Under the pieces are notes generated by a model, which had not been told where the DNA came from, ran no database searches, and worked only from the letters and a program-made list of their open reading frames with translations. Below, one piece after another: positions 1 through 22,229 of a stretch of DNA of 33,624 bases (position 1 is its first letter; every line of letters starts with the position of its first letter). The position numbers and the translations under genes were made by a program. This DNA is from a virus, in the IMG/VR virus record IMGVR_UViG_3300035701_000159, positions 1 to 33,624 of that record. One strand, given 5' to 3'.

Positions 1-349
1 GAAACGCGGCCGTTTCATGGGCGAAGCAGACATTCATGCACGGTAGATGAATCAGTTTGCAATTTCGCCGACGCAATTCCGGCCAGAGCCGCACGCAACG
101 CTCGATCGCAAAATCCACCACCACAGAATCCTTCAGCCATTTCGGCGGCCGGTCCGGCGGGCAGGGCTTTGTGATTTTGCAACCCGCCGCTGCCAAACGT
201 GCGGGCCAAGGGTTGTCGGCAGCTTCCTTGCTTGCCGGCAACACGGTGACGGGGATTTCCAGCGACCGCCACAAGAGGGCCACGGCCCCGCTTTCAGTAT
301 TCCCTCCACCCACAGGTCTGGGGCAACCAAAAAGAACAATCGACTTCAT
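1..349 (-). CDS. Glycosyltransferase-like protein, 5' part only (runs off left edge)
   Basis: An ATG-started frame stays open for 116 codons to the edge of the window, so only the N-terminus is visible. It begins MKSIVLFGCPRPVGGGNTES, a hydrophobic first strand followed by a Gly-rich loop, as in the N-terminal Rossmann domain of GT-B glycosyltransferases. It continues with a segment containing NPWPARLAAAGCKI. Its ATG overlaps the stop of the upstream 103-aa gene (ATGA), so it is translationally coupled to the modification cassette. The glycosyltransferase call rests on the N-terminal pattern and on its neighbours (sulfotransferases, GT8 and GT25 enzymes). The catalytic half lies outside the window, so another nucleotide-binding enzyme is possible. 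Confidence 0.5.
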   Translation of the reverse strand, partial: MKSIVLFGCPRPVGGGNTESGAVALLWRSLEIPVTVLPASKEAADNPWPARLAAAGCKITKPCPPDRPPKWLKDSVVVDFAIERCVRLWPELRRRNCKLIHLPCMNVCFAHETAAF

Positions 350-657
350 GCTTTGGCAACCTCATCTTTGGATTGTGCTTCGTCTGCTTCCGCCTGGCGG
401 ATGGCCTCCAACACCAGTTGCCGCATGGGCCAGCCGGCGCCGGGTAAGGAGGCGGCCACCTTCAGAAAGAACCCTCGCTTCTGCGCTTCCTTCCGCATGT
501 GTTTGACGATGCGTTTTAGTGTGGCCGGCTCCCGGCAACCCGTAGGACCAGCCTCGTCCATTTCCTTGACAAGTTTTTCGCAACCACAGCCGCGCAAGAA
601 GTTCTGGTGGAATCGACGTTTGAGAATGCAGTGTAGATGGGTGCCTGGTCCCGCCAT
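346..657 (-). CDS. Small CxC-motif protein of the glycan cassette
   Basis: This 103-aa protein has an early GPGT motif (residues 3-6), a CGCEKL segment (about 24-29), then MDEAGPTGC and a helical, basic remainder. The spacing C-x-C ... MD..GP..C, followed by an Ile/Lys-rich helix, resembles small uncharacterised proteins I recall being encoded beside glycosyltransferases in phages and mobile elements. The three Cys could bind a metal. The start codon overlaps the stop of the sulfotransferase gene upstream (TAATG), and the stop overlaps the next gene (ATGA), so it is embedded in the modification operon. No enzymatic motif is visible. A role as accessory or scaffold to the glycosyltransferases is inference from position. 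Confidence 0.7.
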   Translation of the reverse strand: MAGPGTHLHCILKRRFHQNFLRGCGCEKLVKEMDEAGPTGCREPATLKRIVKHMRKEAQKRGFFLKVAASLPGAGWPMRQLVLEAIRQAEADEAQSKDEVAKA

Positions 658-1298
658 TACTTTACCTTTGTCCAGTGGTTCAATTCTGGCTGCGCAAACT
701 CAATCGCCGCCTGCCGCTGCTCTGCCGTGGGGACAATACTCGTGAAGTCGATCATGGCGTCTACCGCAATTTGCGGAGATTGGAGTATATCAGCGTAGCG
801 CAGCTTAATGTACTGCACGTTATAGTAGGCAAGATCGGCGTCACGCTTAGCGTAGAGCCAGCGAACGCCATTGACCGTTTCCTCGGGCGTGAGCTTATGT
901 TTCCACCATGACCGGCCGGAAAGAGCCACATCATCTGTGGGCCGCTCGGTGGCAAACACTTTCAATTTCGGCCATGCTACTATTATTTGCGGTATCATGC
1001 GGCAAAGGCAGGGATTCTTGAAGCCCACTATATCGCCGACACGCTGCCGTAAGATTCTCCTGAGTGTGCGAATCCGTTGCTGCGGCGTAGTCCACTCCAG
1101 CGGATCAAAAATCATCCCGTAGGTCGCCAGCCGCAGTTGATGCAAGCCCTCGTCCTCAAAGTACCCAATGGGATTCTTCCGATTTGGTTCTCGCCATGAG
1201 ACGCCCATATCCACACCAAGTTTCCAGAGCATCCCCGCCACGCAGCTTGTGCCAGAACGTGGAGGCCCGACCACGGCGATAACTAAAGCGGAATCCAT
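657..1298 (-). CDS. PAPS-dependent sulfotransferase-like protein
   Basis: This 213-aa protein opens with VVGPPRSGTS (residues 9-18), the 5'-phosphosulfate-binding loop of PAPS-dependent sulfotransferases, followed by a helix and KLGVDMG. FEDE and GFKNPCLCRMIP are further family-like segments, and ATERP resembles the 3'-phosphate-binding strand. It is clearly homologous to the C-terminal half of the 486-aa fusion protein at 3178-4638, sharing the loop, LGV.MG, the AWP and RP motifs and the WW motif. The expected reaction is transfer of sulfate from PAPS to a hydroxyl, probably on a glycan. The gene follows the methyltransferase by one base. A related P-loop kinase fold is the main alternative. 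Confidence 0.8.
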   Translation of the reverse strand: MDSALVIAVVGPPRSGTSCVAGMLWKLGVDMGVSWREPNRKNPIGYFEDEGLHQLRLATYGMIFDPLEWTTPQQRIRTLRRILRQRVGDIVGFKNPCLCRMIPQIIVAWPKLKVFATERPTDDVALSGRSWWKHKLTPEETVNGVRWLYAKRDADLAYYNVQYIKLRYADILQSPQIAVDAMIDFTSIVPTAEQRQAAIEFAQPELNHWTKVK

Positions 1299-1299
1299 G

Positions 1300-1827
1300 C
1301 TATCGCAGCCTCACCAGCCGATCCGCCACCAGTTCGATGGTCATGTGATGTGCTTGCGTAAACTTATTCACGGCACGAACTACGCCGGGATAGTTCGGCG
1401 TGTAATCGTGCGCCAACAGCACGCCGCCGGGTGTCAAGAGAGGCATCGCCATCTGTAAATCATTCAGCACTGGGGTATAATGGTGGTTGGCATCCACCAC
1501 GATCAGATCGAACTTAGCGGGGTTCAGTTTCTCGAATTGCGTGGTGGTCCCCACAAAAATCTGATAGTTTTCGCATTGCTGCGAGTTTCTGACCGCCGGG
1601 AGGCCGAAGGCAGCGTCTTTGGCCACAAAGATGTCCAGTCCGATGAATTGCACCCTCGGCCGCTGTTTGGCTAACCAAGTAGCAGTTGCCCCTGAATGCG
1701 TGCCGATTTCTAGGATACGGCCAGTCTGCGGTATCAGGATCAACAATCCTTTGCGTTCCGCTACCGTCATTTTTGATAGCCCGAAGATGCCAGGAAGTCG
1801 CGTAGGTTTCCAATCTTTGGTCCTCAC
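1300..1827 (-). CDS. Class I SAM-dependent methyltransferase
   Basis: The 175-aa product has the SAM-binding motif I LEIGTHSGATA (residues 39-49), an acidic ribose-binding residue after beta-2 (FIGLDIF, D65), and motif IV FDLIVVDANHHY followed by GGVLLAHDY. This layout matches the Methyltransf_24 group, often found with polysaccharide loci. I chose a GTG start because it overlaps the upstream stop (GTGA) and has an AGGAG ribosome-binding site a few bases before it. The open frame extends further 5' but only through the antisense of the GT8-like gene. The likely role is O-methylation of a sugar in the product of the neighbouring glycosyltransferases. The substrate is not readable from sequence. 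Confidence 0.82.
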   Translation of the reverse strand: MRTKDWKPTRLPGIFGLSKMTVAERKGLLILIPQTGRILEIGTHSGATATWLAKQRPRVQFIGLDIFVAKDAAFGLPAVRNSQQCENYQIFVGTTTQFEKLNPAKFDLIVVDANHHYTPVLNDLQMAMPLLTPGGVLLAHDYTPNYPGVVRAVNKFTQAHHMTIELVADRLVRLR

Positions 1828-2480
1828 GGAATATTCTCCTGTTTGCACGCCGCCATTAGTTCTGCTACCGAGTGGCGTCCGCGTTGGTTGAAATGATAGA
1901 CATAAGCTGGTCGCCGCAACCGTTGGGAGTGCAGGGCATTGTACTGCCACGGTAACCAGGTCACGGGGGTGCGCATTTGATGTAACACGCAGCTCAATGC
2001 CCCCTGGTCTGCACGGCCCACGTTCCTGAACTGACAGTATTCGCCAGCTTCCTTCCATCGTCGCAACACATTAGCGTGCAATGTGCGGTGGTACAAAATT
2101 AGTCCACCATTCAAGTGCTTGCTTTCATCAGGATAGGCAGGCACGCCGAATAGCCTGGACTCGCGGCGGCCGACGTAAGCAACCGGATGGTGAGGCTGAT
2201 GACGCGATACTACGCCAAAGTGTGTCTCGGGCACGATAGCAAAGAGATTGTGACAATCACTACCGATTAGAATGTCGCCGTCGAGCACTAGCACTCGGTC
2301 GTAAGGCGCGGCATAATGGCTGGTAGGAATAAGCGTCTTTTGCCAGAAGTGATGGATGTCAGCTAGCGGAAAGGTAATTTCTTGATACCCTGCTTCCCAG
2401 CGTTCAGCCGCCAAACAAATTGAACGGCGCGCTTGCTGCGGCATGAAGTCTCGCAAGTTGAGTACGATAATGCCATTCAC
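1824..2480 (-). CDS. GT8-like glycosyltransferase (GT-A fold)
   Basis: The 218-aa product carries YDRVLVLDGDILIGSD (around residues 60-75), whose D67-G-D69 is the metal and nucleotide-sugar binding DxD of GT-A enzymes. It also has LNGGLIL (123-129) and DQGAL (158-162), the two downstream signatures of GT8-type retaining enzymes. The family transfers a hexose from a nucleotide sugar; donor and acceptor cannot be told. It is shorter than typical GT8 proteins, mostly through a reduced N-terminus. Translation starts at a GTG overlapping the upstream sulfotransferase stop (GTGA). It sits between a sulfotransferase and a methyltransferase, consistent with building a sulfated, methylated glycan. Confidence 0.82.
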   Translation of the reverse strand: MNGIIVLNLRDFMPQQARRSICLAAERWEAGYQEITFPLADIHHFWQKTLIPTSHYAAPYDRVLVLDGDILIGSDCHNLFAIVPETHFGVVSRHQPHHPVAYVGRRESRLFGVPAYPDESKHLNGGLILYHRTLHANVLRRWKEAGEYCQFRNVGRADQGALSCVLHQMRTPVTWLPWQYNALHSQRLRRPAYVYHFNQRGRHSVAELMAACKQENIP

Positions 2481-3118
2481 GAAAAGCTATACCCGAAGTA
2501 GTCAATGTCCAGCGCAAAGCGTTCCGTCACCAGATTGCGTATGGCTGGCGTGTAATAAGTGCGGTAGTCGGCGTGCCTAGAGCTATTGCGATGCGGCATG
2601 TCGGCCAGCGAGATACCGAGCTTTTCCCCCAGCTTCAGACAGCTTGCTTGATAATCCTCGAAGCGGAAGATGTCATTGACCAGTAGGTTGCCGTAATGAT
2701 CCGTTAGGTAATCCAGTTGGTTAAATGCAAAGTGATTGCGACTGCGCCAGCGATTTCTACCCTGAAGTTGCTTCCTTATCGTGGAGGCTGTTATGAATTC
2801 CGCGAATGGGAGTTGAACTGCCTCCCAGCGATAGCGCCCCCACCAATCTGTGCGGCGCCAGTTTGGTCGCCAAGCTTTCTCGCGGAGCATAGTGTACCAT
2901 GACACCAGCCGATCCCACGGGTTGCGAACAAAAGTAAAGCGATAGAGCTGCTGAAAGGCTTGCGGCCCCAGTCGTTGCATCGCATCTTCGGCATGCGGAT
3001 GCGGAGAAATAAATCTATGTGCTTGCGGGAAGTGCTGCCGTAGTGCCTTTCGGAGGCTGGTGCCACCAGTGCGTTGGATATGTACGAACAAGAACTTATC
3101 GGAGAGTGAGATAAGCAT
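2477..3118 (-). CDS. Sulfotransferase, carbohydrate type (Sulfotransfer_2-like)
   Basis: This 213-aa protein has both hallmark sites of carbohydrate sulfotransferases: the 5'-phosphosulfate loop FVHIQRTGGTSL (residues 11-22) and the 3'-phosphate site FTFVRNPWDRLVSWY (61-75). The latter is very close to the chondroitin/dermatan sulfotransferase signature. C-terminal FRFEDY and a Tyr/Asp-rich end are also family-like. It should use PAPS to sulfate a sugar hydroxyl. It is a different sulfotransferase branch from the ones at 657-1298 and in the fusion gene, so the cassette holds at least two classes. A 59-base spacer separates it from the fusion gene. An AGGT element precedes the ATG. Confidence 0.88.
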   Translation of the reverse strand: MLISLSDKFLFVHIQRTGGTSLRKALRQHFPQAHRFISPHPHAEDAMQRLGPQAFQQLYRFTFVRNPWDRLVSWYTMLREKAWRPNWRRTDWWGRYRWEAVQLPFAEFITASTIRKQLQGRNRWRSRNHFAFNQLDYLTDHYGNLLVNDIFRFEDYQASCLKLGEKLGISLADMPHRNSSRHADYRTYYTPAIRNLVTERFALDIDYFGYSFS

Positions 3119-3177
3119 GGTTGAAGTTTACCTGTGAATCAGTGCAGTGATTTCTGTATTGAGCATGACAAGTGCGT

Positions 3178-4638
3178 TCATGGCAGAGCCGTCTCCGTGC
3201 GTGCCTGCCACCAGGCCACCAGTTCATTCAGGATGCGAGGATCGGGCGGTGAATCCTCCAAGGTGCGGGCGTGTGGAAGTTCTTGCTCGTTGCTTGGTGG
3301 CAGTTGAGAAGGAACTTGCGAATCTGTTTCCTGGTGGTGGTCAAGGCTCTTGTCCAAATGTGCCTCGGCCTGTTGAAACTGTTCTGGGCTGGGTTCGATC
3401 TCCGCAAAGGCCGCCATCCACTCCAGGTGCTTGCGGGGTTCCGCCAGGAATTTGTCGAAGTCCAGCCGCAAGACACGTTCGGCGGGAACCGCTGCGATGT
3501 CGCGATCACGAGTGGAAATCAAGCGGCCGATAAGTTCTTCCGGCTTGATGCCCGCTTGCCACCAGCCGAGCTTACGGAGCGAGTCGATGCTTTTTTCCAA
3601 CGGCCGATCCAACACCACAAACTTGCACTCCGGCCATGCCTGAAGCATCTCGGGGACCATCAGGCAGAGTTTGGCATGCTTCGCGCCGATGATCGCCCCC
3701 TCATTCCCCCGGCCCTGGAGCCACACCCGCAACAGCTTCACGCGCTTGTCAAAGGGTTTTGCTTCCTGAAAATGCGGTTCGGGATAACAGGCCAGACAGA
3801 GGTCGTAGAGCATCTTGGCCTCGAAGCATCCCTTGGGGCTGGCCGCCTTGCCTCCCTCGAAAAACTTCCGGCCCATGACGACGCCCAGTTTATGCAAGGC
3901 CCCGGCCAAGGCACTCGTACCTCCGCGATAGGGACCTAGCACGGCAAGTACCATAGGTAAGACTCTCTGCTGACGATCAAAGGAACGACGGCGCAGGTGC
4001 CGACCCAGGATTTCGCTGTAGCCGGCGGCTTGTTCCACCAGCCAGTGCGTCGGGGCATAGGTAACAATCTGGCCGATCGGCGAATCGCCGCGGGAGAGCC
4101 TTTCGAGGTGATGATCAATGTGGTGGCCGGTCTGCCAATTGTGGGCCGTCAGGTGTCGGTAGACCTTCTTCATACCTGCATTCGTGAGGGCGTATGCGTG
4201 CAGGCGATTTACGGACCAGGGGCGCACGACTTCAGGGTTGATGACTTGCGGGGGATGATTTTTGTAGTGGTTGGTCTGGCCCCCGAGGTAAACTAATTCA
4301 GCGTCTTGCGGCAGGGCGTTGAGGAAGGCGGCAACCTTTGCGGCAAATCCTTCGGTAAATTCAGCATCATCTTCGAGGACCAAAAGCCGCTTCACGCCGT
4401 CACGCAATGCGTCTTCAATGCAACGAAGATGACTTCTGAAGGCGCCCCATGCGGCATTTCCTTGGTTGAAAAAGGGCGCTGGCGGGCAGAGTCGCCCGTC
4501 TATGGCCGGGAGAACCTCAACTTCCCGAAACGGCCATGTGGTCTCGCTGAGCCGCTTCCGAAAACTTGCCAACCGCTGTGGAGTTCTGCCCAAGGAAATG
4601 ACAACACAGCGTGAGAAATAATCACGAAGGTCGACCAT
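3178..4638 (-). CDS. GT25 glycosyltransferase fused to a sulfotransferase domain
   Basis: The 486-aa product has two domains. Residues 1 to about 215 look like glycosyltransferase family 25: VVISLGRTPQRL near the N-terminus, AIDG, a GAFRSHLRC helix, then LVLEDDAEF, whose EDDA (89-92) is the family's metal-binding motif. Residues about 230-430 form a sulfotransferase-like domain with the phosphate-binding loop GPYRGGTS (235-242), KLGVVMG, and an RP motif after a beta strand. This half is homologous to the protein at 657-1298. The C-terminal 50 residues are polar linker. I prefer the ATG at 4638 over an upstream in-frame TTG at 4662. A glycosylating and sulfating bifunctional enzyme is the natural inference. 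Confidence 0.82.
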   Translation of the reverse strand: MVDLRDYFSRCVVISLGRTPQRLASFRKRLSETTWPFREVEVLPAIDGRLCPPAPFFNQGNAAWGAFRSHLRCIEDALRDGVKRLLVLEDDAEFTEGFAAKVAAFLNALPQDAELVYLGGQTNHYKNHPPQVINPEVVRPWSVNRLHAYALTNAGMKKVYRHLTAHNWQTGHHIDHHLERLSRGDSPIGQIVTYAPTHWLVEQAAGYSEILGRHLRRRSFDRQQRVLPMVLAVLGPYRGGTSALAGALHKLGVVMGRKFFEGGKAASPKGCFEAKMLYDLCLACYPEPHFQEAKPFDKRVKLLRVWLQGRGNEGAIIGAKHAKLCLMVPEMLQAWPECKFVVLDRPLEKSIDSLRKLGWWQAGIKPEELIGRLISTRDRDIAAVPAERVLRLDFDKFLAEPRKHLEWMAAFAEIEPSPEQFQQAEAHLDKSLDHHQETDSQVPSQLPPSNEQELPHARTLEDSPPDPRILNELVAWWQARTETALP

Positions 4639-4678
4639 CGTTGTGTTTTTCCAGATATGCAATGGCTTTGAGGTTCAT
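4622..4678 (-). CDS. Possible 18-aa leader ORF before the GT25 fusion gene
   Basis: An ATG overlapping the radical SAM stop (TAATG) opens an 18-codon frame, MNLKAIAYLEKHNDGRPS, which ends inside the start of the GT25 fusion gene in another frame. It could pass ribosomes from one gene to the next by translational coupling, or simply be chance. The peptide has no recognisable motif. Only the overlap geometry supports it. Confidence 0.25.
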   Translation of the reverse strand: MNLKAIAYLEKHNDGRPS

Positions 4679-5859
4679 TACGCTTCCTCGGGGATGGGCT
4701 GACACTTTGTTGCCTCTCGCTCAAACCATTTCGGATCAAAGAGCGCCAGTTCGCTATGGACCCAAATCGCCAATCGCCGCCAATGCCGCGTAAAGATGCA
4801 CCGCACATCCGGCGTTTTCCAGAAGTCGCCGGATGTGACCCAAGACAAGTGACGGCAGCCATGCTGGCAAGACTGCCTAGTCTCGCACTCTCTACACTGC
4901 GGCGATTCGACCCCCTTAGAGCATAGGTGAGCGTACTGATAGAGGTCTTTCCCAAACTGCGGCGTGTTCCCAGCCAGGAAATCCGAAAGTTTCCCGCCGC
5001 ACATTACCGAGTCGCGCGGTTCGTTGAGGAAACGGTGGCACGGCATGAGATAACCATCGAATGTAATGGCTTGCAGGCCCCAGCCTGCACCGCAGCCGAT
5101 CGTCATGGTCTGGCTGTTGGCGAATATCTTTCGGGCGAACAGTTGCAGCACTTCATTGCCTAGCACGCAGCCAAGCTTGAATTGCCGCACAAATTCTTTC
5201 GCCAAGCGTTCCGTCTGCACCTTATACTCGTCAATCGCCTCTAGCGGCCAGTCGGCGTAGTCGTCGGTGGCGAAATCCAATGAACCATAATAACCCTTGC
5301 TGTAGAAATACTTCATGCTTTGCATGAGGTACTTGGCCGTTTCAGGAATGGTGGTAATCCGCCGTGGGCGGTGGTAATCGTCCCACCAAGCGCTTTCACG
5401 TTCGTACCATTGCAAGTAGTCACCGGGCCGAGTGTGTTGGCAGGCTTCTGGGCAACCGCCGACGCTGCGTTTCGAAAGTACGTCATGCTCTCGGCACCAC
5501 GCGACTTGCTCGGGTGTAGCGGTGGCCCCATTGGTGAAAATCGCCTTGCCAATGGGCAGTTGCCGCTTCTCGGCCGCAAGGATAATTTGCTGCACGACGG
5601 CGAAGTTTAGAAACGGCTCGCCGCCAAAGAAATTCAAGGCAACACGTTTCCGGGGCGGCAAATCCGTGCTCAGTTGGCTGACATACTCCACGATCTGCGC
5701 GGCAACCTCCGGCGACATATCACCCTGGGCGGAATCCGCTGCCCGTTCGAGATAGCAATACTTGCATCGCTGATTGCAGCGGGCGGTAATGCCAATATCC
5801 AGTTCGCCGGGCCGCCACGTACTGGGATCAAGCAATATCGGCTGTTTCGGGCACGCCAT
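4678..5859 (-). CDS. Radical SAM/SPASM enzyme, anSME-like
   Basis: The 393-aa product has the radical SAM cluster motif C28-x3-C32-x2-C35 (CNQRCKYC) and a GGEP motif (79-82), followed by SVGGCPEACQHTR, comparable to the S-x-D-G-...-R segment of sulfatase maturases. The C-terminal part has Cys groups typical of a SPASM domain for two extra 4Fe-4S clusters: GCGAGWGL...DGYLMPCHRF and CRECETRQSCQHGCRH, with a late C. Anaerobic sulfatase-maturating enzymes, which make formylglycine, are the closest family by pattern; RiPP-modifying enzymes are the alternative. I prefer ATG 5859, overlapping the preceding small gene, over TTG 5904. It heads the sulfotransferase and glycosyltransferase cassette. No sulfatase is visible in the window. 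Confidence 0.85.
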   Translation of the reverse strand: MACPKQPILLDPSTWRPGELDIGITARCNQRCKYCYLERAADSAQGDMSPEVAAQIVEYVSQLSTDLPPRKRVALNFFGGEPFLNFAVVQQIILAAEKRQLPIGKAIFTNGATATPEQVAWCREHDVLSKRSVGGCPEACQHTRPGDYLQWYERESAWWDDYHRPRRITTIPETAKYLMQSMKYFYSKGYYGSLDFATDDYADWPLEAIDEYKVQTERLAKEFVRQFKLGCVLGNEVLQLFARKIFANSQTMTIGCGAGWGLQAITFDGYLMPCHRFLNEPRDSVMCGGKLSDFLAGNTPQFGKDLYQYAHLCSKGVESPQCRECETRQSCQHGCRHLSWVTSGDFWKTPDVRCIFTRHWRRLAIWVHSELALFDPKWFEREATKCQPIPEEA

Positions 5860-6073
5860 TCTCGTATGCCTGAGTAAGGGCTGTGATAATGAGTTCTTCG
5901 GCAATCGGCAAGTCGTCCAAGAGAAACTGATTCAGTTCTAGGGGCTGATCGCCACGGCCGACTTGTACCAGCCCGTCGCGTGTGTAGATGAAGATGGCCA
6001 GTGTCCCGGTTGGTTGAAGTTTCCGGGAAGTGTCGATCCAGGCGTCAATTTCCTTCCGTTCGTTCTCCGTCAT
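5828..6073 (-). CDS. Small acidic protein upstream of the radical SAM gene
   Basis: This 81-aa protein starts at an ATG seven bases after a strong AAGGAGG site, which rules out the longer open frame that runs into the fibre gene. It is acidic, with an N-terminal helix (MTENERKEIDAWIDTSRKL), a short beta segment (GTLAIFIYTRDGLVQVGRG) and a helical C-terminus rich in Leu, Ile and Glu. I do not recognise a family. Its 3' end overlaps the radical SAM start, so the two are translationally coupled. It could be a partner or a peptide substrate of that enzyme, but there is no leader/core organisation or Cys content that would argue for a RiPP precursor. Confidence 0.7.
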   Translation of the reverse strand: MTENERKEIDAWIDTSRKLQPTGTLAIFIYTRDGLVQVGRGDQPLELNQFLLDDLPIAEELIITALTQAYENGVPETADIA

Positions 6074-6092
6074 GCATGATCCTCCTTGATCT

Positions 6093-9000
6093 TTAGGTTG
6101 GCGTATGCGAACCAACAACCGGAGTGATGTGCGTATCGGTGATGGTCGCCCAGGTAGTAAACACAGTAGTGTCATCGGTGGCGTAGACCGTCCACAGTCC
6201 ATCCACCACGCGGAAATGGAAGGCGGCTAGCACGAGGCAGCAGAGGGTATTGCGGCCGGCAGTGCCTTGCACGTCGGCCATATCTGCCAGAAAGACGCCC
6301 TCGACGGCTTGCGGTTTGAATCGCCAGTCTGCGCCACGGGCCTCGATCATGTTGGCCAGTTTGGTTTGCAATTCGCTGCTGTCGGCCAGGATGTCGTTGA
6401 TGCTGGCGTTGTCGGGGGCGGTATAGCCGCCGGGAGTCAACCAGTCGCCCTTAGCGTTGAGAGCAGCAGCATCTATTGCAGAAGCGTCAATCCATCCAGC
6501 AGGCGCATGCGTCCCTAGAGAGGTAAGCCAATCACCACTGGCTGGCATGGTCCCTAGCTGTGTTTTCAGGTCCGCTACGCCCGTGGTGTTGAGCGAATCC
6601 GCCAAATCCATCTTTGCGCCAACAGTGGCCCAATCACCTTTCCCGTTGAGGGCGTCGGTGTCGATGGCAGCCGCGTTGATCCAACCAGACGGTGCGTTGG
6701 TTCCAAGGGTCGTCAAGGGATTCGTGGGGATGGCCAGCACGTGAGCATCGGTAGCGAGCCCCGACTGAATAGCGGTCACTGCGGTGGCATTGGGTGCGTC
6801 CACGAGATCCATCACATCACCGGCCTGGGCCGCCGTCTTCGCGGGGTCGTAGGCCCCGTCCAATGAGTAACCCGTCTTGTCGCCGGTATCGGCCTTCACC
6901 GCCGCGATGTCGGCCGAGACGCTGGCGCCGGCGGGTGTGCCGAGAAGAGTGATGATGGAATAGATGTCATCCCAATCGATAACCTCCACACAGTTGTCAA
7001 TGTCGAGCAGAATCGATTGAGTTTGGGTACTGAGATAACTGTAGAGACTATCGATGTCTGCGGCGATCGTTTCCCATGTTGGCGTGCCGAGCAAAGCGTA
7101 GGCGTCGCCTGTCATATCTGGCGGTGTCCCGCCTTTCCAGCAAACCACGTCGGCTCGGACCTGCCCGCTGGTGAGGTTGATTTGACCTTGGCCTGCCCCC
7201 TGAGAAACCTTGACGTAACCGTTGCTGTCGATCTGCATCGAGGAGAAATAAGACGGAAAGGTCACACCAGAAATTGAACTGATACTGGTCGCCGACAGGG
7301 TGACTCCCGTATCTTGGTTGTACACGTGAGCCCAATCGATACCGACAGACCCCGCTGCGCCAGCGGAATCAGTTCCCAGGATTTTGCCAAGGTCCATCCT
7401 GCCGGAACTATCGATAGCCAGAGACGCAAAGTTGGCAGGGAATGTCTGGGTCAAACTAAATCCTGTTTTTCCCCAAGCCGCAAGTCGATTGTCGATGTCG
7501 GTGGTGGTCAGCGTTGAAAAGCCCGTAGCAGTTGCCCACGACCCCGAACCATGAGCGCTATTGAGCGCGGTAACGAGGGCGTCAAACGTAGTAGTCGTTC
7601 CCGAGAGGCTGAAGCCAGTTTTACCCCAGGCCGTTAGTCTTGCGTCGATGTCCGAAGTAGTCAGCGTCGAAAAGCCCGTAGCAGTTGCCCACGAACCTGA
7701 CCCGTGGGCACTGTTGAGGGCCGTCACAAGAGCATCAAACGTAGTCACGGTTCCGCTAAGGCTAAACCCCGTCTTGCCCCAAGCAGCAAGCCGGTTGTCA
7801 ATATCGGTCGTGGTTAAGGTGCTGGTGCCAGTTCCGATCGTCGGTTTGTTCGTTACATCTGCGGCCCAGTCGAGCGTGGCCGGACTCTTGGCTACAGCGT
7901 AGTGGCTGCTATCGGCCTTCACATAGTAGTGACCCGAATCGGTTGAAAACTCTAGGGTCTGAGGGACTCGACTAAGTAGAGTCGTGGTTCCCGAGGTGTC
8001 GCCGCCAGCATAAGTGGACCAATCGCCTTTACCATTCAGAGCAGCCGAAGCGATAGCTGCTGCATTGATCCATCCGCTAGGTGCGTTCGTGCCTAACGTC
8101 GTCAGAGGATTTGTGGGGATCGCCGACACGGCCGTTTGCAGGGCAGCATTGCCATAGGTTCCGTTGTTGACGATGGCGTAGGCATCGCCAGTCTGCGCCG
8201 TGCCGATCGTCCAGTCAGCCAACTTTTTGCCAATGGAACCCACAGCCGTCATGCCGCTGGTGGCTGCGTTCCAAATAGCAGCGATGATGCCGTTGAGAAC
8301 ATCCAAGTAACCGGCGCGGGTTGTGGTGTAGCCCTGCGCGGTCATGGCGGATTGCACGCCGGTTCCGTCTAGGGTCGAAAGGCCCGCTTGGATTTTGGTG
8401 ACTGCATCAGCTTTTACGCCTGCGGCCGTGAGCCAATCGGTCGTGACCACAGGAAGATTGGTCAGTGTCGTGACCGTGCCAGAGTCTACGATCACATGCT
8501 GGCTCGTCGAGATGGTGGTGCCAGAGAGGCCGACCGCGGTCGTGGGGGCGTAGACGTGGCCCCAATCTACGCCAACGTAGCCTGCTTGCCCTGCACTGGC
8601 GGTTCCCAAGACCTTGCCAAGATCAACACGGCCAGAGGCATCGACCGCCAATGCTGCCGTAGCGTTGCCTACGTAGGCTCCTACGGTGATTGCCGCCGCC
8701 GCTGTTGCCGTCTGACCTCCAAGTTGCGCTGCGTTTGCCTGGACGTAGGCAGAGGTTATGGCCGTCCCTCCCCACTTGCTCACGTCTACGCGGCCATTGG
8801 CGTCGATCGACAAGGAGGAAAAGTTGCTGGGGAACGACTGGGAGAGGGAGTATCCTGTCTTATCGCTTACGGTGGAAACCGTGTAGCCGGTCTTATCTGC
8901 GTTAGTGCCAACTGTGACCTTGCCCGTACCAGATGTGATGGCGAGGTCGGCGAAATTTGTCGGGAAAGCAGACGGTAGGTTATCAGTTTTAGCCCTGATC

Positions 9001-11066
9001 GCGTTCAGCACTTCTCCCTCGCCGAGGCCACTCTGAAAATCGGGATACCAATCCACGGTCCCCGAGGCGTTTCTGGCGCGGACCCGCAGGATCAACATCT
9101 TGTCGGCCGTGGACGGGGTGTAAGTCACAGTGACTTTATGCCACGCTGTATCATCGTCCCAGTTCACGCCGGCCGCGTAGTCCACCAGTTTGCTGTTGGC
9201 CGAATTGAACGCATAATCCGGATCAATCAATTGAATCCGGGCTGGTTCGGTGAACCCAGCCGCCGACGAGAGGATGTAGACATCCACGGTGAGCGGGAAA
9301 TTCTTCTTCACGAAAATCGGCAGATCGAGGAACACCGGGTAGGTTACAACCTCCAGCGTGTGCTGATGCGCGTACGGACAGGTGAATCCCGACGGCTGAG
9401 AACCAGGGGTGTGCGAAGCGACTTTGCCTCCGGGCATCCAACCTTTCACTTGGCCGATCTGCGGCACGCCCGCACTGTTGGCGATATCATAGATCATCGT
9501 CTGTTGCCAGGCGGAGGCACCGCCAGCAACGGACTGTTGGTAAGAGGCACACTGAGTTGCGCTACCCAGATTAGCACCGTAGCCTTCCAGGACATCTACA
9601 GAATACAAGTCATAGATATTGCTGGTGAATGTGGCTCGACTCAAGTTGTAGCTGCCAGCGCGCAAACCATATATACAGTTGCTTATAATCCCATTGATGG
9701 CACAAGAAGTACAACCAAAATAAGCGTAATTCCCACCGTTGCAGGCCCCATTCAAACTGCAGGAAATACACGAATTTAAGCCATTACCATTGCCACTAAG
9801 ATTCCCGGTTTCAGTTACTTCGCAGGAGTAACAACCGTAGAGCGCATTGGCGTTTCCGTTTACACTGCCAGTAACGAGGCAACCTACACACGTGTAAAGA
9901 CCTCCTCCGGATGTCGTACCATTTCCACTCACAGTTCCGCTTACCGTGCATCTAGTGCAAGTACGAACTCCATACGTCCCCCCGCTGATGCTCCCGCTCA
10001 GCGTGCAGGAGGTGGAGTTGAATATCCCGTTTCCCTGTAGACTGCTTCCCGTCTGCCGGATTGAACATTGCAATACCGCACTGGTGGCTGCGTCGACAGC
10101 GTTCTGGGTGCCATTGAATCGAATCTCCACGTTCCGACGATTGAGGGTGAGAATCGACCGCGGAGCTTTATAACCGACCAGGTTTGAACTCAGTGTGACG
10201 GTAGTTGCGGTGATCGCTGTAGAGGCGTGCAGCGCTAACCTCTCCGCATCATTGGTCGCTCTTCGCCAATTGGCCACGGTCACGGCCGCGGAGAGTTTCC
10301 ACGGCGTGTCCGCCGTGAGGTCGGTGGTCACGGGCAGAACGGCAGTACCGGCCGCGGCACCACCCTCGACAGTGATGGCACCGACGGAATTGCTTGTCAA
10401 ATCCTTGATGTCGCCGCCCGACGTGGCCGAAATCTTGAACCAATTCGTATCGATGCTCTGAACGTAATACACTGTGCCTTCAGAAACTCCGCCGGGGAGC
10501 GTCCCGGTATTGGCCCAGAAATAGAGTGGTTGTCCGACGATGAACGGGTGTGCCGTGCAGTTGATCTTGTCGTCGGCCGCCGTACCCGTGCAGGCTTTCT
10601 CGCCGGTGGTGACCAGCGCCGTCACGTAGGTCGGATTCGTGCCGTAGAGTGAAATCGACAGGTATGTTGCATTGATCGTGGCGGTGCCGAGCAGTTCAAT
10701 AATAGCCGTGTAGGACTCGGAAAGCGGAGTCTCCGCCGTGGCACAATTCAGTTGCCCCTTGCTGGCCGCGTTCGTGCCGGCAATCGTGGTGGCAGTTGCC
10801 AACTTCAGATAGGTGCTGGCGTTCGTGGCAAACGTCAGAATGCCCGGCGTGGTAGCGTGGCTGGTGATGGTGATGCCCGGCACGCCCGTAGTCCAGGCCG
10901 ATTGATCCACATCGAACGTTACCGTGTGACCGGCCTGAATTACTACCGGGTGGGCGTCGCCATCGGCGGGAATGCCCCACGTGCCGCTGCCGTTGGCCGC
11001 CTCGTTCCACATCGTCGTGGCGTTGCTCCAGTTGCCGGACGCGAGCTGTGAATACCAGGTGGCCAT
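6093..11066 (-). CDS. Giant tail fibre / receptor-binding protein
   Basis: At 1657 residues this is the largest gene. Residues 1-330 look like a beta-rich head (MATWYSQLASGNW, GTWGIPADGD). Residues about 350-470 form a repetitive Gly/Ser/Cys segment with five CxxC pairs, read here as a right-handed beta-helix. About 600-700 resembles a beta-sandwich. The remaining half is long, low in Cys and rich in Ala/Thr/Gly, with many modules such as GKTGFSL, NPLTTLGTNAPSGWINAAAI and DLGKILGT, including 51-residue tandem repeats. The C-terminus is a short beta-rich tip. Length, repeats and position after the tail genes fit a fibre that contacts the host. The ATG overlaps the upstream stop (TGATG). It ends before the modification cassette. 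Confidence 0.82.
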   Translation of the reverse strand: MATWYSQLASGNWSNATTMWNEAANGSGTWGIPADGDAHPVVIQAGHTVTFDVDQSAWTTGVPGITITSHATTPGILTFATNASTYLKLATATTIAGTNAASKGQLNCATAETPLSESYTAIIELLGTATINATYLSISLYGTNPTYVTALVTTGEKACTGTAADDKINCTAHPFIVGQPLYFWANTGTLPGGVSEGTVYYVQSIDTNWFKISATSGGDIKDLTSNSVGAITVEGGAAAGTAVLPVTTDLTADTPWKLSAAVTVANWRRATNDAERLALHASTAITATTVTLSSNLVGYKAPRSILTLNRRNVEIRFNGTQNAVDAATSAVLQCSIRQTGSSLQGNGIFNSTSCTLSGSISGGTYGVRTCTRCTVSGTVSGNGTTSGGGLYTCVGCLVTGSVNGNANALYGCYSCEVTETGNLSGNGNGLNSCISCSLNGACNGGNYAYFGCTSCAINGIISNCIYGLRAGSYNLSRATFTSNIYDLYSVDVLEGYGANLGSATQCASYQQSVAGGASAWQQTMIYDIANSAGVPQIGQVKGWMPGGKVASHTPGSQPSGFTCPYAHQHTLEVVTYPVFLDLPIFVKKNFPLTVDVYILSSAAGFTEPARIQLIDPDYAFNSANSKLVDYAAGVNWDDDTAWHKVTVTYTPSTADKMLILRVRARNASGTVDWYPDFQSGLGEGEVLNAIRAKTDNLPSAFPTNFADLAITSGTGKVTVGTNADKTGYTVSTVSDKTGYSLSQSFPSNFSSLSIDANGRVDVSKWGGTAITSAYVQANAAQLGGQTATAAAAITVGAYVGNATAALAVDASGRVDLGKVLGTASAGQAGYVGVDWGHVYAPTTAVGLSGTTISTSQHVIVDSGTVTTLTNLPVVTTDWLTAAGVKADAVTKIQAGLSTLDGTGVQSAMTAQGYTTTRAGYLDVLNGIIAAIWNAATSGMTAVGSIGKKLADWTIGTAQTGDAYAIVNNGTYGNAALQTAVSAIPTNPLTTLGTNAPSGWINAAAIASAALNGKGDWSTYAGGDTSGTTTLLSRVPQTLEFSTDSGHYYVKADSSHYAVAKSPATLDWAADVTNKPTIGTGTSTLTTTDIDNRLAAWGKTGFSLSGTVTTFDALVTALNSAHGSGSWATATGFSTLTTSDIDARLTAWGKTGFSLSGTTTTFDALVTALNSAHGSGSWATATGFSTLTTTDIDNRLAAWGKTGFSLTQTFPANFASLAIDSSGRMDLGKILGTDSAGAAGSVGIDWAHVYNQDTGVTLSATSISSISGVTFPSYFSSMQIDSNGYVKVSQGAGQGQINLTSGQVRADVVCWKGGTPPDMTGDAYALLGTPTWETIAADIDSLYSYLSTQTQSILLDIDNCVEVIDWDDIYSIITLLGTPAGASVSADIAAVKADTGDKTGYSLDGAYDPAKTAAQAGDVMDLVDAPNATAVTAIQSGLATDAHVLAIPTNPLTTLGTNAPSGWINAAAIDTDALNGKGDWATVGAKMDLADSLNTTGVADLKTQLGTMPASGDWLTSLGTHAPAGWIDASAIDAAALNAKGDWLTPGGYTAPDNASINDILADSSELQTKLANMIEARGADWRFKPQAVEGVFLADMADVQGTAGRNTLCCLVLAAFHFRVVDGLWTVYATDDTTVFTTWATITDTHITPVVGSHTPT
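7462..7830. repeat. 153-bp tandem repeat inside the fibre gene
   Basis: Units beginning near 7462, 7615 and 7768 repeat at 153 bp, encoding 51 residues each (DID.RL.AWGKTGFSL ... FDALVTAL ... GSGSWATATGFSTL). Two are complete and one is partial. Many differences are synonymous, so the repeats have diverged under protein-level constraint. Confidence 0.85.
9657..10019. repeat. CxxC-bearing beta-helix repeats in the fibre
   Basis: Within the fibre protein, CxxC pairs occur at residues 370/373, 393/396, 412/415, 433/436 and 452/455, a spacing of 19-23 residues. Each is followed by a hydrophobic-x-G-x-hydrophobic-x-G-N pattern (for example CLVTGSVNGN). The period fits one turn of a right-handed beta-helix, which would stack the Cys pairs on one face. 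Confidence 0.75.
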
Positions 11067-11266
11067 CAGCGGAACCTTTCACAAAGAGCGATGAATCGAG
11101 CGAACAAGGGACAGACTGCCAGCAATGCTTGCCGCTGCGTCGGATTTATGCGCGGCCAATCAGCCTCACAACGGACCACATGACTCTCCACGGCATCCAG
11201 ACCGTCCGCTACTTTTTTTGCCTGACCTGGCGGGAGGTGCATGTCTATCTTCGTTTTTTTGGCCAC
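11066..11266 (-). CDS. Small basic phage protein
   Basis: This 66-aa protein begins at a GTG six bases after GGGGAG, just downstream of the previous stop (TAACGTG). A TTG five codons earlier is a weaker choice. It has a Lys-rich N-terminus, then a helix containing HLPPGQAKKVADGLDAVESH, and a second helix with several Cys near the C-terminus (LLAVCPLFARFIALC). No family is recognised. Its stop overlaps the fibre start (TGATG), so it is translated just before the fibre. A fibre-assembly or attachment role is only suggested by position. Confidence 0.6.
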   Translation of the reverse strand: MAKKTKIDMHLPPGQAKKVADGLDAVESHVVRCEADWPRINPTQRQALLAVCPLFARFIALCERFR

Positions 11267-11267
11267 G

Positions 11268-11450
11268 TTAATTCTCCCCAACTATCTCGAACTCTTCCTC
11301 TTCCGGTAGGGTGGCTTCGAGTGCATCCACCGCTGCCTGCACGTCGGTTGGCTGACTGCGAAAATGAAAACAGGTCTGACTCTCGTTGCTGAGAATCACA
11401 TCCACATCGTATCCGTCGCAAACCATTTCTTCCCGAATGATGATTGCCAT
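11268..11450 (-). CDS. Small acidic phage protein
   Basis: This 60-aa protein follows an AAGGA site seven bases before its ATG. The N-terminal half is a predicted beta-hairpin (MAIIIREEMVCDGYDVDVIL). The C-terminal half is an amphipathic helix ending in an acidic stretch (LPEEEEFEIVGEN). No family is recognised. It lies two bases before the start of the 66-aa gene, and the opposite charges of the two products make a small complex possible, though this is inference. Confidence 0.6.
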   Translation of the reverse strand: MAIIIREEMVCDGYDVDVILSNESQTCFHFRSQPTDVQAAVDALEATLPEEEEFEIVGEN

Positions 11451-11463
11451 GATCGTTCCTTAG

Positions 11464-11559
11464 TTACGCGGGTTTCTTTGCGTTGCCGCCGCCGATCGGC
11501 GCGCCGCCATTGAGATTGCTGCCGGCTGACGGATCGCAGTAGAGTTCGGTGTAGGCCAT
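11464..11559 (-). CDS. 31-aa ORF with a TELYxD start motif
   Basis: An ATG with GAGGTGA a few bases upstream opens a 31-codon frame starting MAYTELYCDPSAGSNLNGG and ending in a Gly-rich, basic tail. TELYxD...GSNLN is a sequence I associate with the N-termini of longer phage tail or fibre proteins, so this may be the surviving start of a truncated gene. A similar TELYYD occurs near the C-terminus of the 425-aa tail protein upstream. The strong ribosome-binding site argues that it is translated. Confidence 0.55.
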   Translation of the reverse strand: MAYTELYCDPSAGSNLNGGAPIGGGNAKKPA

Positions 11560-11702
11560 CGTCTCACCTCATACCCAAAATTCTTCCCAATACTGGATTA
11601 GCTTCACCGGCCCGGTGAATCCTGCCGCCCCACGATCCGGACGATTGACTCAGCGAGGAGGTCTTGGGTGTACCAAGCCTGCGGACCAGCCTCAGTTTGC
11701 CT
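11560..11702 (-). pseudogene. Coding-like remnant after the serine-rich gene
   Basis: The 143 bases between the 909-aa gene and the 31-aa ORF contain two protein-like stretches in different frames. One continues the 909-aa frame after its TAA and contains PQAWYTQDLLAESIVRIVG. The other, in the -1 frame, contains AAGFTGPVKLIQYWEEFWV and ends at a TGA. Joined by a -1 shift they would make one small domain, but there is no good start codon. A decayed gene or C-terminal exon-like remnant is the likeliest explanation. A sequencing indel is the alternative. Confidence 0.3.
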
Positions 11703-14432
11703 TTACATGGTATAGGCGCTTTGCAGGAATCTTTCATTACTCTCAAATTGCTCGCGTGTTCGATCGGGGAAGCGCAGGTCGGCAAAGCCTCGGCGAATGC
11801 CCAGCAGGCGAATCACCACGCGGATAGGGTTCTCCGTTGATGCTGCGGGCACTCGCAATCGGACATGGCCGTCCACTACTATCGCGCCGACACAGACGGC
11901 CTCGTCGGATTGACAGAGACATTCGATGCTGTCCTTGGCGCAGACCTCGATCAAGTGGGGATCAATCGGCACCAGCGTTTCGGCCTGCCTCACTATGATG
12001 ATGAGACGGTCGTTAAAGTTGACTTCTGGGGACTCTTCCACAAACAGGGCTGTGAAACCCGTTTTGGTCCAGCTTGCCGGTACGATGGCCGTGGACTTGC
12101 CGCTGCCCGAGGGCACGCTGCCTGAGGGTACGCTGCCGCTGCCTTCACTGCCGCTGGCAGTTGAACCACTGCCAGTCGAAGGCCTCGATGAACCACAACT
12201 CTCCGATGTCTCAGAGCAGGCTCCCGCTTCACTACAAGGCGGATCACATTGAATAGGCCTCCATCTAAATTTTACTGCGAAGCCGCCTCGGCAGCCGGAA
12301 GATAAACTGGTGCTGATCGATGGGCGTGAAGAGGCCGATGATTCCGAGCTGATCGATGGGCGTGAAGAGGCCGATGATTCCGAGCTGATCGATGGGCGTG
12401 AAGAGGCCGATGATTCCGAGAGGGCGCTGCCGGATGACACGCTGCCGACACTAGGGTGACTGATACTCGACGGAACACTGCTGGCGCTGGGGTGACTGGA
12501 AATCGATGAACCGCGACTCTCCGATGACTCATGGCATCCTTGTTGGTGGCAACTCGGTGAGCCGGAAATCGACGAACCGCTGGGGATACTTGATGATGCC
12601 GACGAACCGCTGGGGATACTTGATGATGCCGACGAACCGCTGGGGATACTTGATGATGCCGACGAACCACTGGGGATACTTGATGATGCCGACGAACCAC
12701 TCGATAGCGTACTGGAACTAGCACTGACTATGGATATACTGCTACCACTGATGACAACTGACGAGATGGACGATAGTGATGAACTCGTTGTGCCTCGCCC
12801 GCAACATCGTCCGTATTTAAGAATCTCAAATTTTTCGGAATCGGCGCAGCGTTTCGCCCAGGCTGTGGCCCATCGCGGCGCGTGGCCTAAGTCCGGAAAG
12901 TCAACCTCGTAGATTCCCAGCGGGTCCCAGACCTTGATGATGCAGCAGCGCTGCGCGTGACAACAGGTCCGTTGCCAACTATTGCCGTGACTTCCACTGC
13001 CTCCACTGCCTCCACTGCCTCCGCTGCTTCCGCTGCGGCCGCTGGTTGCGGATGGCGCAGCATTATGAGGAGCCGCAGCAGGAAACTGCGAACTGAAGCC
13101 GCCGTGGCAGCTCCCCGCAGACGAAACTGGGCCACTAGAAGCAGATGAGCCGGAAATCGATGAACCGCGACTCTCCGATGACTCATGGCATCCTTGTTGG
13201 TGGCAACTCGATGAGCCGGAAATCAATGAACTACTAGAGGGTGATGAGCTTGAAGCGGGCGAGCTGGATATTGATGAACTTCCGCTGGATGGCGAGCTGG
13301 ATATTGATGAACTTCCGCTGGATGGCGAGCTGGATATTGATGAACTTCCGCTGGATAGCGAGCTGGATATTGATGAACTTCCGCTGGATGGCGAGCTGGA
13401 TATTGATGAACTTCCGCTGGATGGCGAGCTGCTTTGGGAACTGACACTACTGGACGGAAAACTGGAGGATGAACCTTCAGAGTCAGAGTGGGTCGTTCCA
13501 CTACTAATGGATGACTCACTCAAGGCACTCAAGCCCTCACTAAATGAAAAGGAGAAGCCACCTTGGCAACCGGAGGGCAAGCTGGTGCTGGATGACTTAC
13601 TGGTTCTGTGCCGCTTGCCACAAGGAAATCTGAGCACCTGGGCGTCAACTTCCTTGCAGCAGTGCAAGTCCTTTAACAACCGCACACGAATGATGTCATC
13701 ATAAGCGTGCAACACCCGCCAGGTGTGGGAGGTGTAGTCCATCACGCACCACACCCATTGCCCGCGCCCATAAAGCGGGTAGAGCGCTTCCTGCCAATAA
13801 CAGGGGTGTTGTTTATCGCCGCCGCTGCCGCTGCCACTGGCTTGGCTTGTTCCGCTGCCACTAGCTTGGCTTGTTCCGCTGCGACCGCTATTGTCGGAGA
13901 AGTCAGCCTCAGCGATTAGTGATCCCGCAGGTCCACTAGCGAAACGACCGCTGGCGCTGGCCCCGCTACCTGTACTGCCTTCACTATTGCTGCTGCCTTG
14001 GTGGCACTTGTGAGGCTCATGCGGCGGGCCGGCAATCGGCCACCACAAATCAGTGAGCAGGTCGGGCGGGTTGACTTCGAGGGCCTTCCAAAATACATTT
14101 TCTGGCGTATTGCGATTGCCCTGGTTTCCCCAATCCCACCAGAATGTGACGGGTTTGCCCTTGCAGACCCAAAATAGACCTTGAATTCCGGGGCCGAAAT
14201 TGGCTGGCCCTATCTGTTGCCAGCAGGTCACAATCTCGAAGCAGATCAATCGCGTAGGCAGGTTCGGTGAGAGGGTAATGGAGTTGGTGCTGGAGATGGC
14301 GTGCATCCCCAGTCCCGTATCCGGCGAGAGTGCTGCGCGAACCTTCTGGGCCGTGCGCGATGCCATCCGGGCCACATCCGACAAGCCGCCGATGGGTGTG
14401 CCGTGAACCGGAGATAACGAGGGGATTGTCAT
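11703..14432 (-). CDS. Serine-rich repeat tail protein
   Basis: This 909-aa protein alternates folded Cys-rich modules with very Ser-rich low-complexity blocks. The N-terminal domain (1-145) is ordered. Modules with WQEALYPLYGRGQWVW and with CCIIKVWDPLGIYEVDFPD look like repeats of one small beta domain. Ser blocks occur at about 145-205, 290-410, 560-670 and 670-710. A C-x-GGF motif (CQGGF, CHGGF, CRGGF) recurs after each Ser block, near residues 287, 441 and 712. The last 140 residues are beta-rich and non-repetitive. The ATG overlaps the upstream tail gene stop (ATGA). Position after the tape measure suggests a tail-tip or adhesin component. The Ser blocks are plausible O-glycosylation sites. 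Confidence 0.75.
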   Translation of the reverse strand: MTIPSLSPVHGTPIGGLSDVARMASRTAQKVRAALSPDTGLGMHAISSTNSITLSPNLPTRLICFEIVTCWQQIGPANFGPGIQGLFWVCKGKPVTFWWDWGNQGNRNTPENVFWKALEVNPPDLLTDLWWPIAGPPHEPHKCHQGSSNSEGSTGSGASASGRFASGPAGSLIAEADFSDNSGRSGTSQASGSGTSQASGSGSGGDKQHPCYWQEALYPLYGRGQWVWCVMDYTSHTWRVLHAYDDIIRVRLLKDLHCCKEVDAQVLRFPCGKRHRTSKSSSTSLPSGCQGGFSFSFSEGLSALSESSISSGTTHSDSEGSSSSFPSSSVSSQSSSPSSGSSSISSSPSSGSSSISSSLSSGSSSISSSPSSGSSSISSSPSSGSSSISSSPASSSSPSSSSLISGSSSCHQQGCHESSESRGSSISGSSASSGPVSSAGSCHGGFSSQFPAAAPHNAAPSATSGRSGSSGGSGGSGGSGSHGNSWQRTCCHAQRCCIIKVWDPLGIYEVDFPDLGHAPRWATAWAKRCADSEKFEILKYGRCCGRGTTSSSLSSISSVVISGSSISIVSASSSTLSSGSSASSSIPSGSSASSSIPSGSSASSSIPSGSSASSSIPSGSSISGSPSCHQQGCHESSESRGSSISSHPSASSVPSSISHPSVGSVSSGSALSESSASSRPSISSESSASSRPSISSESSASSRPSISTSLSSGCRGGFAVKFRWRPIQCDPPCSEAGACSETSESCGSSRPSTGSGSTASGSEGSGSVPSGSVPSGSGKSTAIVPASWTKTGFTALFVEESPEVNFNDRLIIIVRQAETLVPIDPHLIEVCAKDSIECLCQSDEAVCVGAIVVDGHVRLRVPAASTENPIRVVIRLLGIRRGFADLRFPDRTREQFESNERFLQSAYTM
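12313..12420. repeat. 36-bp tandem repeat, three units
   Basis: Three near-identical 36-bp units encode 12-residue SESSASSRPSIS repeats in the serine-rich protein. The unit length is a multiple of three, so copy number can change without a frameshift. Confidence 0.92.
12498..12556. repeat. 59-bp dispersed repeat, copy 1
   Basis: This copy is identical over 59 bases to 13152-13210. It encodes the Cys-containing cassette around CHQQGCHESSESRGSSIS, placed at the edge of a Ser block. The exact identity, despite diverged surroundings, points to recent duplication or gene conversion. Confidence 0.92.
12571..12690. repeat. 30-bp tandem repeat, four units
   Basis: Four 30-bp units encode the ten-residue repeat GSSASSSIPS. 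The fourth differs by one base, and a partial fifth unit follows to about 12708. Confidence 0.92.
13152..13210. repeat. 59-bp dispersed repeat, copy 2
   Basis: This is the second copy of the 59-bp segment at 12498-12556, encoding the same CHQQGCHESSE cassette. It adjoins the 33-bp repeat array. Confidence 0.92.
13261..13425. repeat. 33-bp tandem repeat, five units
   Basis: Five 33-bp units encode an 11-residue SSPSSGSSSIS repeat, with one unit carrying a single substitution (Pro to Leu). A partial unit follows. Confidence 0.92.
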
Positions 14433-21284: not shown

Positions 21285-21335
21285 GGCGGTTGTCCTTTCA
21301 GCTTTCTTCCGACGGCCCTTCGTTCCACTTGCACG

Positions 21336-21764: not shown

Positions 21765-21775
21765 CGAAGTGTTCC

Positions 21776-22216: not shown

Positions 22217-22229
22217 AACGGTTATCCTT

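Follow-up and report, generated by a model that had tools for sequence, protein, structure and literature searches.

Why would a tailed virus keep sugar-building and sulfate-adding enzymes beside a serine-rich gene that adjoins its tail genes? The locus belongs to an uncultured tailed virus of bacteria, and the window, meaning the whole stretch of DNA analysed, covers positions 1 to 33,624 (33,624 nucleotides) of the IMG/VR virus fragment IMGVR_UViG_3300035701_000159. In it, a gene for a 909-aa Ser-rich protein sits between the tail genes and a one-strand enzyme cassette, and from the sequences this arrangement suggests that viruses with a fused GT25 glycosyltransferase (GT) and sulfotransferase (ST) may put sulfated sugars on their own tails. 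No match was found to the window capsid, and viral scans with single-protein queries (capsid, portal, terminase and fusion) returned a near-identical fragment only, or nothing. Searches of isolate phages by tblastn gave no match to the capsid, portal, tail or Ser-rich proteins and, for the fusion, a weak match to one uncultured phage via the GT half; a genome-contig scan for the host found distant proteobacterial matches only. The genes that bear on the question are listed below, and the cassette is on one strand throughout, as a sequence-only reading had described it.

19626..20186, minus strand: 186-aa head–tail region protein whose C-terminal tail is rich in Ser (15 of the final 40 aa)
14429..15940, minus strand: tail protein, 425 aa from the ATG at 15706, encoded upstream of the Ser-rich gene; Gly/Ser linker at the C terminus
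11703..14432, minus strand: Ser-rich, Cys-containing protein of 909 aa (27.4% Ser), candidate glycan acceptor; its start codon shares bases with the stop codon of the tail gene
6093..11066, minus strand: fibre-like protein of 1657 aa, Thr-rich (13.6%), alternative acceptor candidate
4678..5904, minus strand: radical SAM/SPASM protein directly before the fusion; probable start 5859; CNQRCKYC motif
3178..4662, minus strand: GT25 glycosyltransferase–PAPS sulfotransferase fusion; probable ATG at 4638
2477..3118, minus strand: sulfotransferase ST2 (Sulfotransfer_2, PF03567, 43.6 bits against a cut-off of 22; galactose-3-O-sulfotransferase phrog_3347, 3e-22)
1824..2480, minus strand: weakly matched GT-A-like, GT8-like glycosyltransferase (E=0.12; 12.3 bits, below the cut-off of 24.3)
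1300..2058, minus strand: SAM methyltransferase (Methyltransf_24, 57.5 bits); probable start GTG at 1848
657..1298, minus strand: second ST3-like sulfotransferase (Sulfotransfer_3, 24.3 bits, just under the cut-off of 27)
346..657, minus strand: uncharacterised 103-aa ORF within the cassette
2..349, minus strand: ORF cut by the contig end, with no family match in profile searches

The 909-aa protein had no family match in profile searches. It contains five Ser blocks (~310 aa), defined by at least 35% Ser over 21 aa, that alternate with Cys-containing stretches. Because both TCN (141) and AGY (108) codons are used, its Ser coding is not one DNA triplet repeat; parts of the gene consist of DNA units of 30, 33 and 36 bp repeated almost perfectly in tandem. 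The Ser-richness and repeats described in the sequence-only reading stand, while the virion or tail role that it assigned is one we infer from gene order, the single basis for it. That reading also gave Ser-rich extensions to several head–tail and tail proteins: the one on the 186-aa protein is real, and those at 18819–19595 and 14429–15940 are ordinary Gly/Ser/Ala linkers. The Ser blocks of the 909-aa protein may likewise be plain linkers. The tail protein had no family match in profile searches, though its position matches that of tail proteins in two other phages, L005 (328 aa) and L169 (351 aa), and the fibre-like protein had no Pfam match.

At the centre of the cassette is the fusion, both halves of which had been recognised correctly. 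The GT half scored 34.9 bits against PF01755 (curated cut-off 24), and that of the L005 fusion scored 34.6. The ST half reached 21.7 bits against Pfam Sulfotransfer_3, below the gathering score of 27 that the relatives L007, L253 and L275 pass; it is confirmed as a PAPS sulfotransferase by its predicted fold, which matched the tyrosylprotein sulfotransferase TPST1 (Z 15.7). In the same model (mean pLDDT 66), the GT half matched COLGALT1 (Z 14.0, rmsd 3.3, 193 aligned), with a GT-A fold like that of known GT25 enzymes. The 5'-phosphosulfate loop R.GTS is present in the ST half and in the 657–1298 protein (PRSGTS / YRGGTS). The fusions of the two other phages are 40% and 39% identical to that of the window, conserved over the whole length, and the EDDA motif is invariant in all three. 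Among GT25 enzymes of solved structure, the closest in sequence are human procollagen galactosyltransferase and mimivirus R655, which glycosylate proteins or are proposed to (PMC9546862).

The two further sulfotransferases and the methyltransferase of the sequence-only reading were also recovered: ST2 and the methyltransferase by their profile scores, and the ST3-like protein by sequence, through its loop and 35% identity to the ST half of the fusion. Its GT8-like call was not substantiated: the motifs DGD, LNGG, DQ..L and HFN can be picked out by eye, and the fold model (pLDDT 32) is too poor to inform. The supposed further glycosyltransferase at 2–349 is unsupported, since this ORF is cut off and matches nothing. 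Overlooked at that stage were the small ORF at 346–657 and the radical SAM/SPASM gene, a possible partner of the cassette whose product scores above the cut-offs for both domains. The best NCBIfam match of this protein was the PapB-type peptide maturase NF047865, at 131 bits, well short of the equivalog cut-off of 340. A radical SAM protein fused to GT25 in L253 was compared with it; the two are not close relatives and are common only at the phrog_1802 level, so we gave this link little weight.

We scanned viral contigs for the PAPS-loop of the sulfotransferases, which yielded 70 loci. Outside the window, the GT25-ST fusion occurred at only two of these, L005 and L169, in both cases just downstream of a Ser/Cys-rich protein that in turn comes after the tape measure and one tail gene, and 0/68 of the remaining loci had a comparable Ser-rich gene within ~10 kb. 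The Ser threshold was set after the data were seen; a TCN-run scan for Ser-rich genes served as background only and mostly gave loci without Ser-rich proteins. Ser-rich matches at 0.33–0.38 in other ST loci were antisense or spurious ORFs in those checked, with L228 (0.33) outside the check. On a conservative count, the association stands at 1 in 42 clusters; taken as two, it gives a p of ~0.001.

L005 and L169 have one short motif in common (C.GQCTW.AVD) and are probably of one ancestry; both carry HK97-type capsid and portal or terminase genes, from which the matchless window capsid differs. No homology was detectable between the window and L005 in either the Ser-rich or the tail proteins. 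The cases number three only, two of them mutually related. In all three phages, the fusion holds the same late-module position on the same strand. The L169 cassette, which appears complete, consists of two soluble bifunctional proteins (GT25-ST and GT32-like/GT31-like) followed by opposite-strand genes.

The sequence-only reading had offered co-occurrence in related genomes as its check, and relatives carrying the cassette without any Ser-rich virion gene as evidence against it. For the fusion the check turned out well, in phages with different capsids; read loosely, the contrary case is represented by record G047, which has an ST close to the fusions, GT25 and methyltransferase genes, yet no Ser-rich gene. 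The Ser-rich link therefore holds for the fusion only. Further fusions join sulfotransferases to other glycosyltransferases (GT2-ST in L205; ST-GT2-like in L161 and L157/L007), so viral sulfotransferases often act with glycosyltransferases. Inspection of regions from related isolate phages (Campylobacter radical SAM, DLP6 ST) showed no comparable cassette.

We suggest, with a probability of about 0.5, that these soluble enzymes assemble a glycan, sulfated and probably also methylated, on the phage's own low-complexity tail protein, chiefly the Ser-rich one. The cassette would be a late-gene maturation module, in which GT25 may add or extend a sugar within the O-linked glycans that the Ser blocks would carry, the fused and other sulfotransferases would sulfate the glycan in the cytoplasm using host PAPS, and the methyltransferase would cap it. 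So decorated, the glycan could join the tail and alter virion adsorption, stability or shielding. That GT25 and PAPS-sulfotransferase domains share a polypeptide in three phages, always downstream of a tape measure, tail gene and Ser-rich gene, argues for this; against it, no Ser O-glycosyltransferase making the first Ser–sugar bond was identified. The earlier proposal of sulfated, methylated glycans on the phage's own tail is partly supported, by the co-occurrence and the soluble enzymes, and weakened by the few cases and by G047. More tentatively, some tailed phages may display a mucin-like tail domain, in which Ser blocks carry sulfated, methylated O-glycans made by GT25-sulfotransferase and its partners.

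The cassette might instead act on glycans that the host secretes or bears on its surface, in infection or in lysogeny (seroconversion, superinfection exclusion), and its place beside the Ser-rich gene would then only mark a site behind the tail genes where accessory genes tend to settle. In PHROGs, the GT25 and ST families concerned are classed as moron genes, the closest ST2 relative from an isolate has replication genes around it, and the L169 record carries a tyrosine integrase, as lysogenic conversion would predict. Against this, the window cassette yielded neither a recognisable membrane GT, flippase or polymerase nor a predicted transmembrane segment in any of its proteins, though cytoplasmic sulfation of surface-glycan precursors would likewise need no membrane enzyme, and the cassette is cut at position 1 (the contig end), so a partner may be missing. 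The tie of Ser-rich genes to the fusion, rather than to sulfotransferases in general, and the shared late-module placement make us regard this explanation as unlikely, if the strongest of the alternatives.

A virion protein may also be glycosylated and sulfated with a different acceptor: the Thr-rich fibre at 6093–11066 or, in other phages, collagen-like fibres. This fibre directly precedes the radical SAM and GT25-ST genes, collagen is a substrate of GT25 relatives, and GT25-bearing G047 encodes a collagen-like fibre with abundant GPT/GVT-type triplets; in L005 and L169, however, no long fibre lies between the Ser-rich gene and the cassette, and we consider a fibre acceptor improbable. Phages are known to employ glycosyltransferases in DNA hypermodification, and the radical SAM protein finds its best NCBIfam matches among RiPP maturases. 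Even so, it seems very improbable that the cassette and this PapB-like enzyme make a modified peptide or small sulfated molecule, or hypermodify phage DNA, with the tail irrelevant: neither a precursor-peptide-like gene next to the radical SAM gene nor a base-hydroxylating enzyme was recognised in the window, an incomplete record, and no radical SAM gene adjoins GT25-ST in L005 and L169.

A fusion found repeatedly beside a Ser-rich tail gene points to glycans as the class of substrate and supplies a candidate acceptor as well, and the question can therefore be tested with one enzyme and one peptide. Should glycosylation of the tail prove true, phages would count among the small number of systems with known sulfation of their own surface, which would bear on adsorption and virion recognition; virion glycosylation is already known, and sulfation as a virion modification in bacterial viruses would be new. 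Gram-positive bacteria have serine-rich repeat glycoproteins with adjacent glycosyltransferases, and the window resembles these systems, by analogy of function, in placing Ser-rich repeats beside a glycosylation cassette. It differs in having a tail protein as the proposed acceptor and in its additional sulfotransferases, and neither GtfA/GtfB nor SecA2/SecY2 was recognised among the window proteins scanned (a subset of ORFs in a fragmentary record). Relative to the GT25 family (COLGALT1, the proposed enzyme mimivirus R655 and LPS galactosyltransferases), the fusion is alike in PF01755 score, sequence and fold, and differs in being joined to a PAPS sulfotransferase. In the mycobacteriophages Che8, Corndog and Myrna, phage-encoded glycosyltransferases act on the capsid and tail tube (Freeman et al. 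2023 as cited in PMC12363180), a parallel to the virion glycans proposed here; the passages concerned describe no sulfotransferase, GT25 or Ser-rich acceptor, whereas the glycan of the window is predicted, from genes, to be sulfated. Sulfotransferase genes (Sulfotransfer_3) recur in phage genomes, where a 2023 paper states that their function stays unclear (PMC10580990), and those of the window are of the same broad ST family; what sets three phages apart is a sulfotransferase fused to GT25 beside a Ser-rich tail gene.

The late genes of the window, which is a whole IMG/VR record of 33,624 bases, are read from the minus strand in the order S53-type peptidase, portal, possible protease, probable capsid, small head–tail genes, tape measure, tail protein, Ser-rich protein, long fibre and the enzyme cassette, which is incomplete where the record end (position 1) cuts through it.

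Window features discussed here
32056-33438, minus strand: Pro-kumamolisin/S53-like peptidase
20739-22297, minus strand: three adjacent proteins alike in sequence
11703-14432, minus strand: 909-aa Ser-rich protein
4678-5904, minus strand: radical SAM/SPASM gene
3178-4662, minus strand: fusion of GT25 and PAPS sulfotransferase (ST)

A near-identical fragment from another metagenome sample (L003/L004, IMGVR_UViG_3300032046_000452) matches the head region and provides a Terminase_3 gene upstream of the window genes. Beyond this fragment, searches of viral contigs revealed no relatives for the capsid, portal and terminase, and isolate phages yielded no match to the capsid, portal, tail or Ser-rich proteins. 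The peptidase, located between terminase and portal (Pro-kuma_activ and Peptidase_S8 above cut-off), also had no isolate-phage match. The three adjacent proteins (..GTPYVLT.., ..LRRTNH.A.D.P.S..) appear to be a paralogous family, possibly of capsid decoration proteins.

The serine-rich composition of the putative tail protein proposed in the sequence-only reading was confirmed: Ser makes up 27.4% of its residues and lies in five blocks, with Cys-containing stretches in between. Some repeat units are recent DNA duplications, yet large numbers of codons from each of the two Ser families encode it, so Ser composition is maintained at the protein level. Two of three "Ser-rich extensions" claimed for other proteins are instead Gly/Ser/Ala linkers. 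Within the cassette, we recovered the expected GT25-ST fusion, two further STs (one Sulfotransfer_2 protein and one ST3-like paralogue of the fusion's ST half, 35% identity) and a SAM methyltransferase (Methyltransf_24). The supposed GT8-like enzyme is present, though its GT8 likeness is weak, and the last ORF, taken for a probable further glycosyltransferase, is a fragment without any match. Overlooked previously was the radical SAM/SPASM gene immediately preceding the fusion, whose product is PapB-like at a score below cut-off.

Searching with the two ST paralogues aligned to each other led to L005, on the 24.4-kb record of a phage with HK97-type capsid and portal. Here the order is tape measure, tail gene, 430-aa Ser-rich protein (20% Ser; SSSSE, SESESEPSTSS), 267-aa protein, GT25-ST fusion (40% identical to that of the window), methyltransferase, Stf0-type ST, GT32-like protein and contig end. 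The portal of this phage (L016, 440-2392, plus strand) has an (SDT)n repeat at its C-terminal end. A PAPS-loop DNA pattern that picked up the two window STs and the ST relatives known by then, but no background loci, returned 70 loci over all viral contigs, including one further GT25-ST fusion, L169, on the 37.5-kb record of a temperate-type phage (integrase, terminase, HK97-type capsid). There, the tape measure and a 351-aa tail protein are followed by a 502-aa Ser/Cys-rich protein with SSDPP repeats, a 209-aa protein, the fusion and a GT32-like/GT31-like protein, after which come opposite-strand genes. The anticipated co-occurrence was seen for the fusion: both other fusions have a Ser-rich gene after a tail gene. 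The window and L005 Ser-rich proteins have no detectable homology, which suggests that the common property is Ser-richness itself.

STs are fused to other glycosyltransferases in more phages, as GT2-ST (L205) or ST-GT2-like (L161, L157/L007) proteins, and a 478-aa ST ORF in a related record (L167) sits among capsid, GH25 and fibre genes.

Fusions of ST with glycosyltransferases other than GT25 in viral contigs
L205, 574-2109: GT2-ST
L161, 277-1761: ST-GT2-like
L007, 9986-11446: ST-GT2-like

We scanned ST loci up to about 10 kb on either side for 60-aa windows of at least 40% Ser, a threshold chosen after the data were seen. Peak fractions were 0.73 (window), 0.58 (L005) and 0.45 (L169), and 0 of the 68 other ST loci reached 0.40 within that range; near misses above 0.34 were rejected as antisense or spurious ORFs. 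Clustering at 60% identity gave 42 clusters, and with the window excluded as the discovery case, a Ser-rich gene accompanied 2/2 fusion loci versus 0 of the remaining clusters (p about 0.001, post hoc threshold). L005 and L169 have a motif in common and may be a single lineage, which would reduce the association to 1 in 42 clusters.

Nearest to the fusions in the ST tree are L207, which directly follows tape measure and tail gene where its contig stops, and L184. The record of the latter, G047, has GT25, ST and Methyltransf_24 genes and a GT25-radical SAM fusion, with a collagen-like fibre and no Ser-rich gene, so glycosyltransferase/ST/methyltransferase sets do occur without one. A relative with the cassette but no Ser-rich virion gene had been named as evidence against the proposal; read loosely, G047 is such a relative, whereas none was found with the GT25-ST fusion itself. 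The G047 fusion is one 515-aa ORF (L253, 4059-5606, minus strand), and this phage further holds a second GT25-like gene and volactin.

An AlphaFold model of the window fusion, built from a three-sequence alignment, was moderate (mean pLDDT 66). Its second half resembles PAPS sulfotransferases, most closely tyrosylprotein sulfotransferase (Z 15.7). For the first half, the collagen galactosyltransferase GT25 domain (Z 14.0) is a better match than a beta-1,4-galactosyltransferase (Z 11.4). By sequence, the best solved structures for the GT25 half were procollagen galactosyltransferase and mimivirus R655, for which a collagen glycosyltransferase role is proposed only (PMC9546862). These relatives hint at a protein acceptor but do not prove one, because saccharide-acting enzymes have the same fold.

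We favour, at about even odds, modification of the Ser-rich protein of the virion in the cytoplasm, where the cassette would draw on host nucleotide sugars and PAPS, because its enzymes are predicted to be soluble, no lipid-linked or membrane partner enzyme was seen with it in this record cut at position 1, and the cassette comes after the Ser-rich tail protein in all three fusion phages. The chief rival, that the cassette modifies the host surface, seems rather unlikely to us.

Phage enzymes that glycosylate virions are already known from mycobacteriophages (PMC12363180), and the function of phage sulfotransferases is still unclear according to one paper (PMC10580990). We found no description of phage virion sulfation in the literature, which was partially covered. 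If the acceptor is confirmed, a sulfated virion would be a new variation on known phage virion glycosylation.
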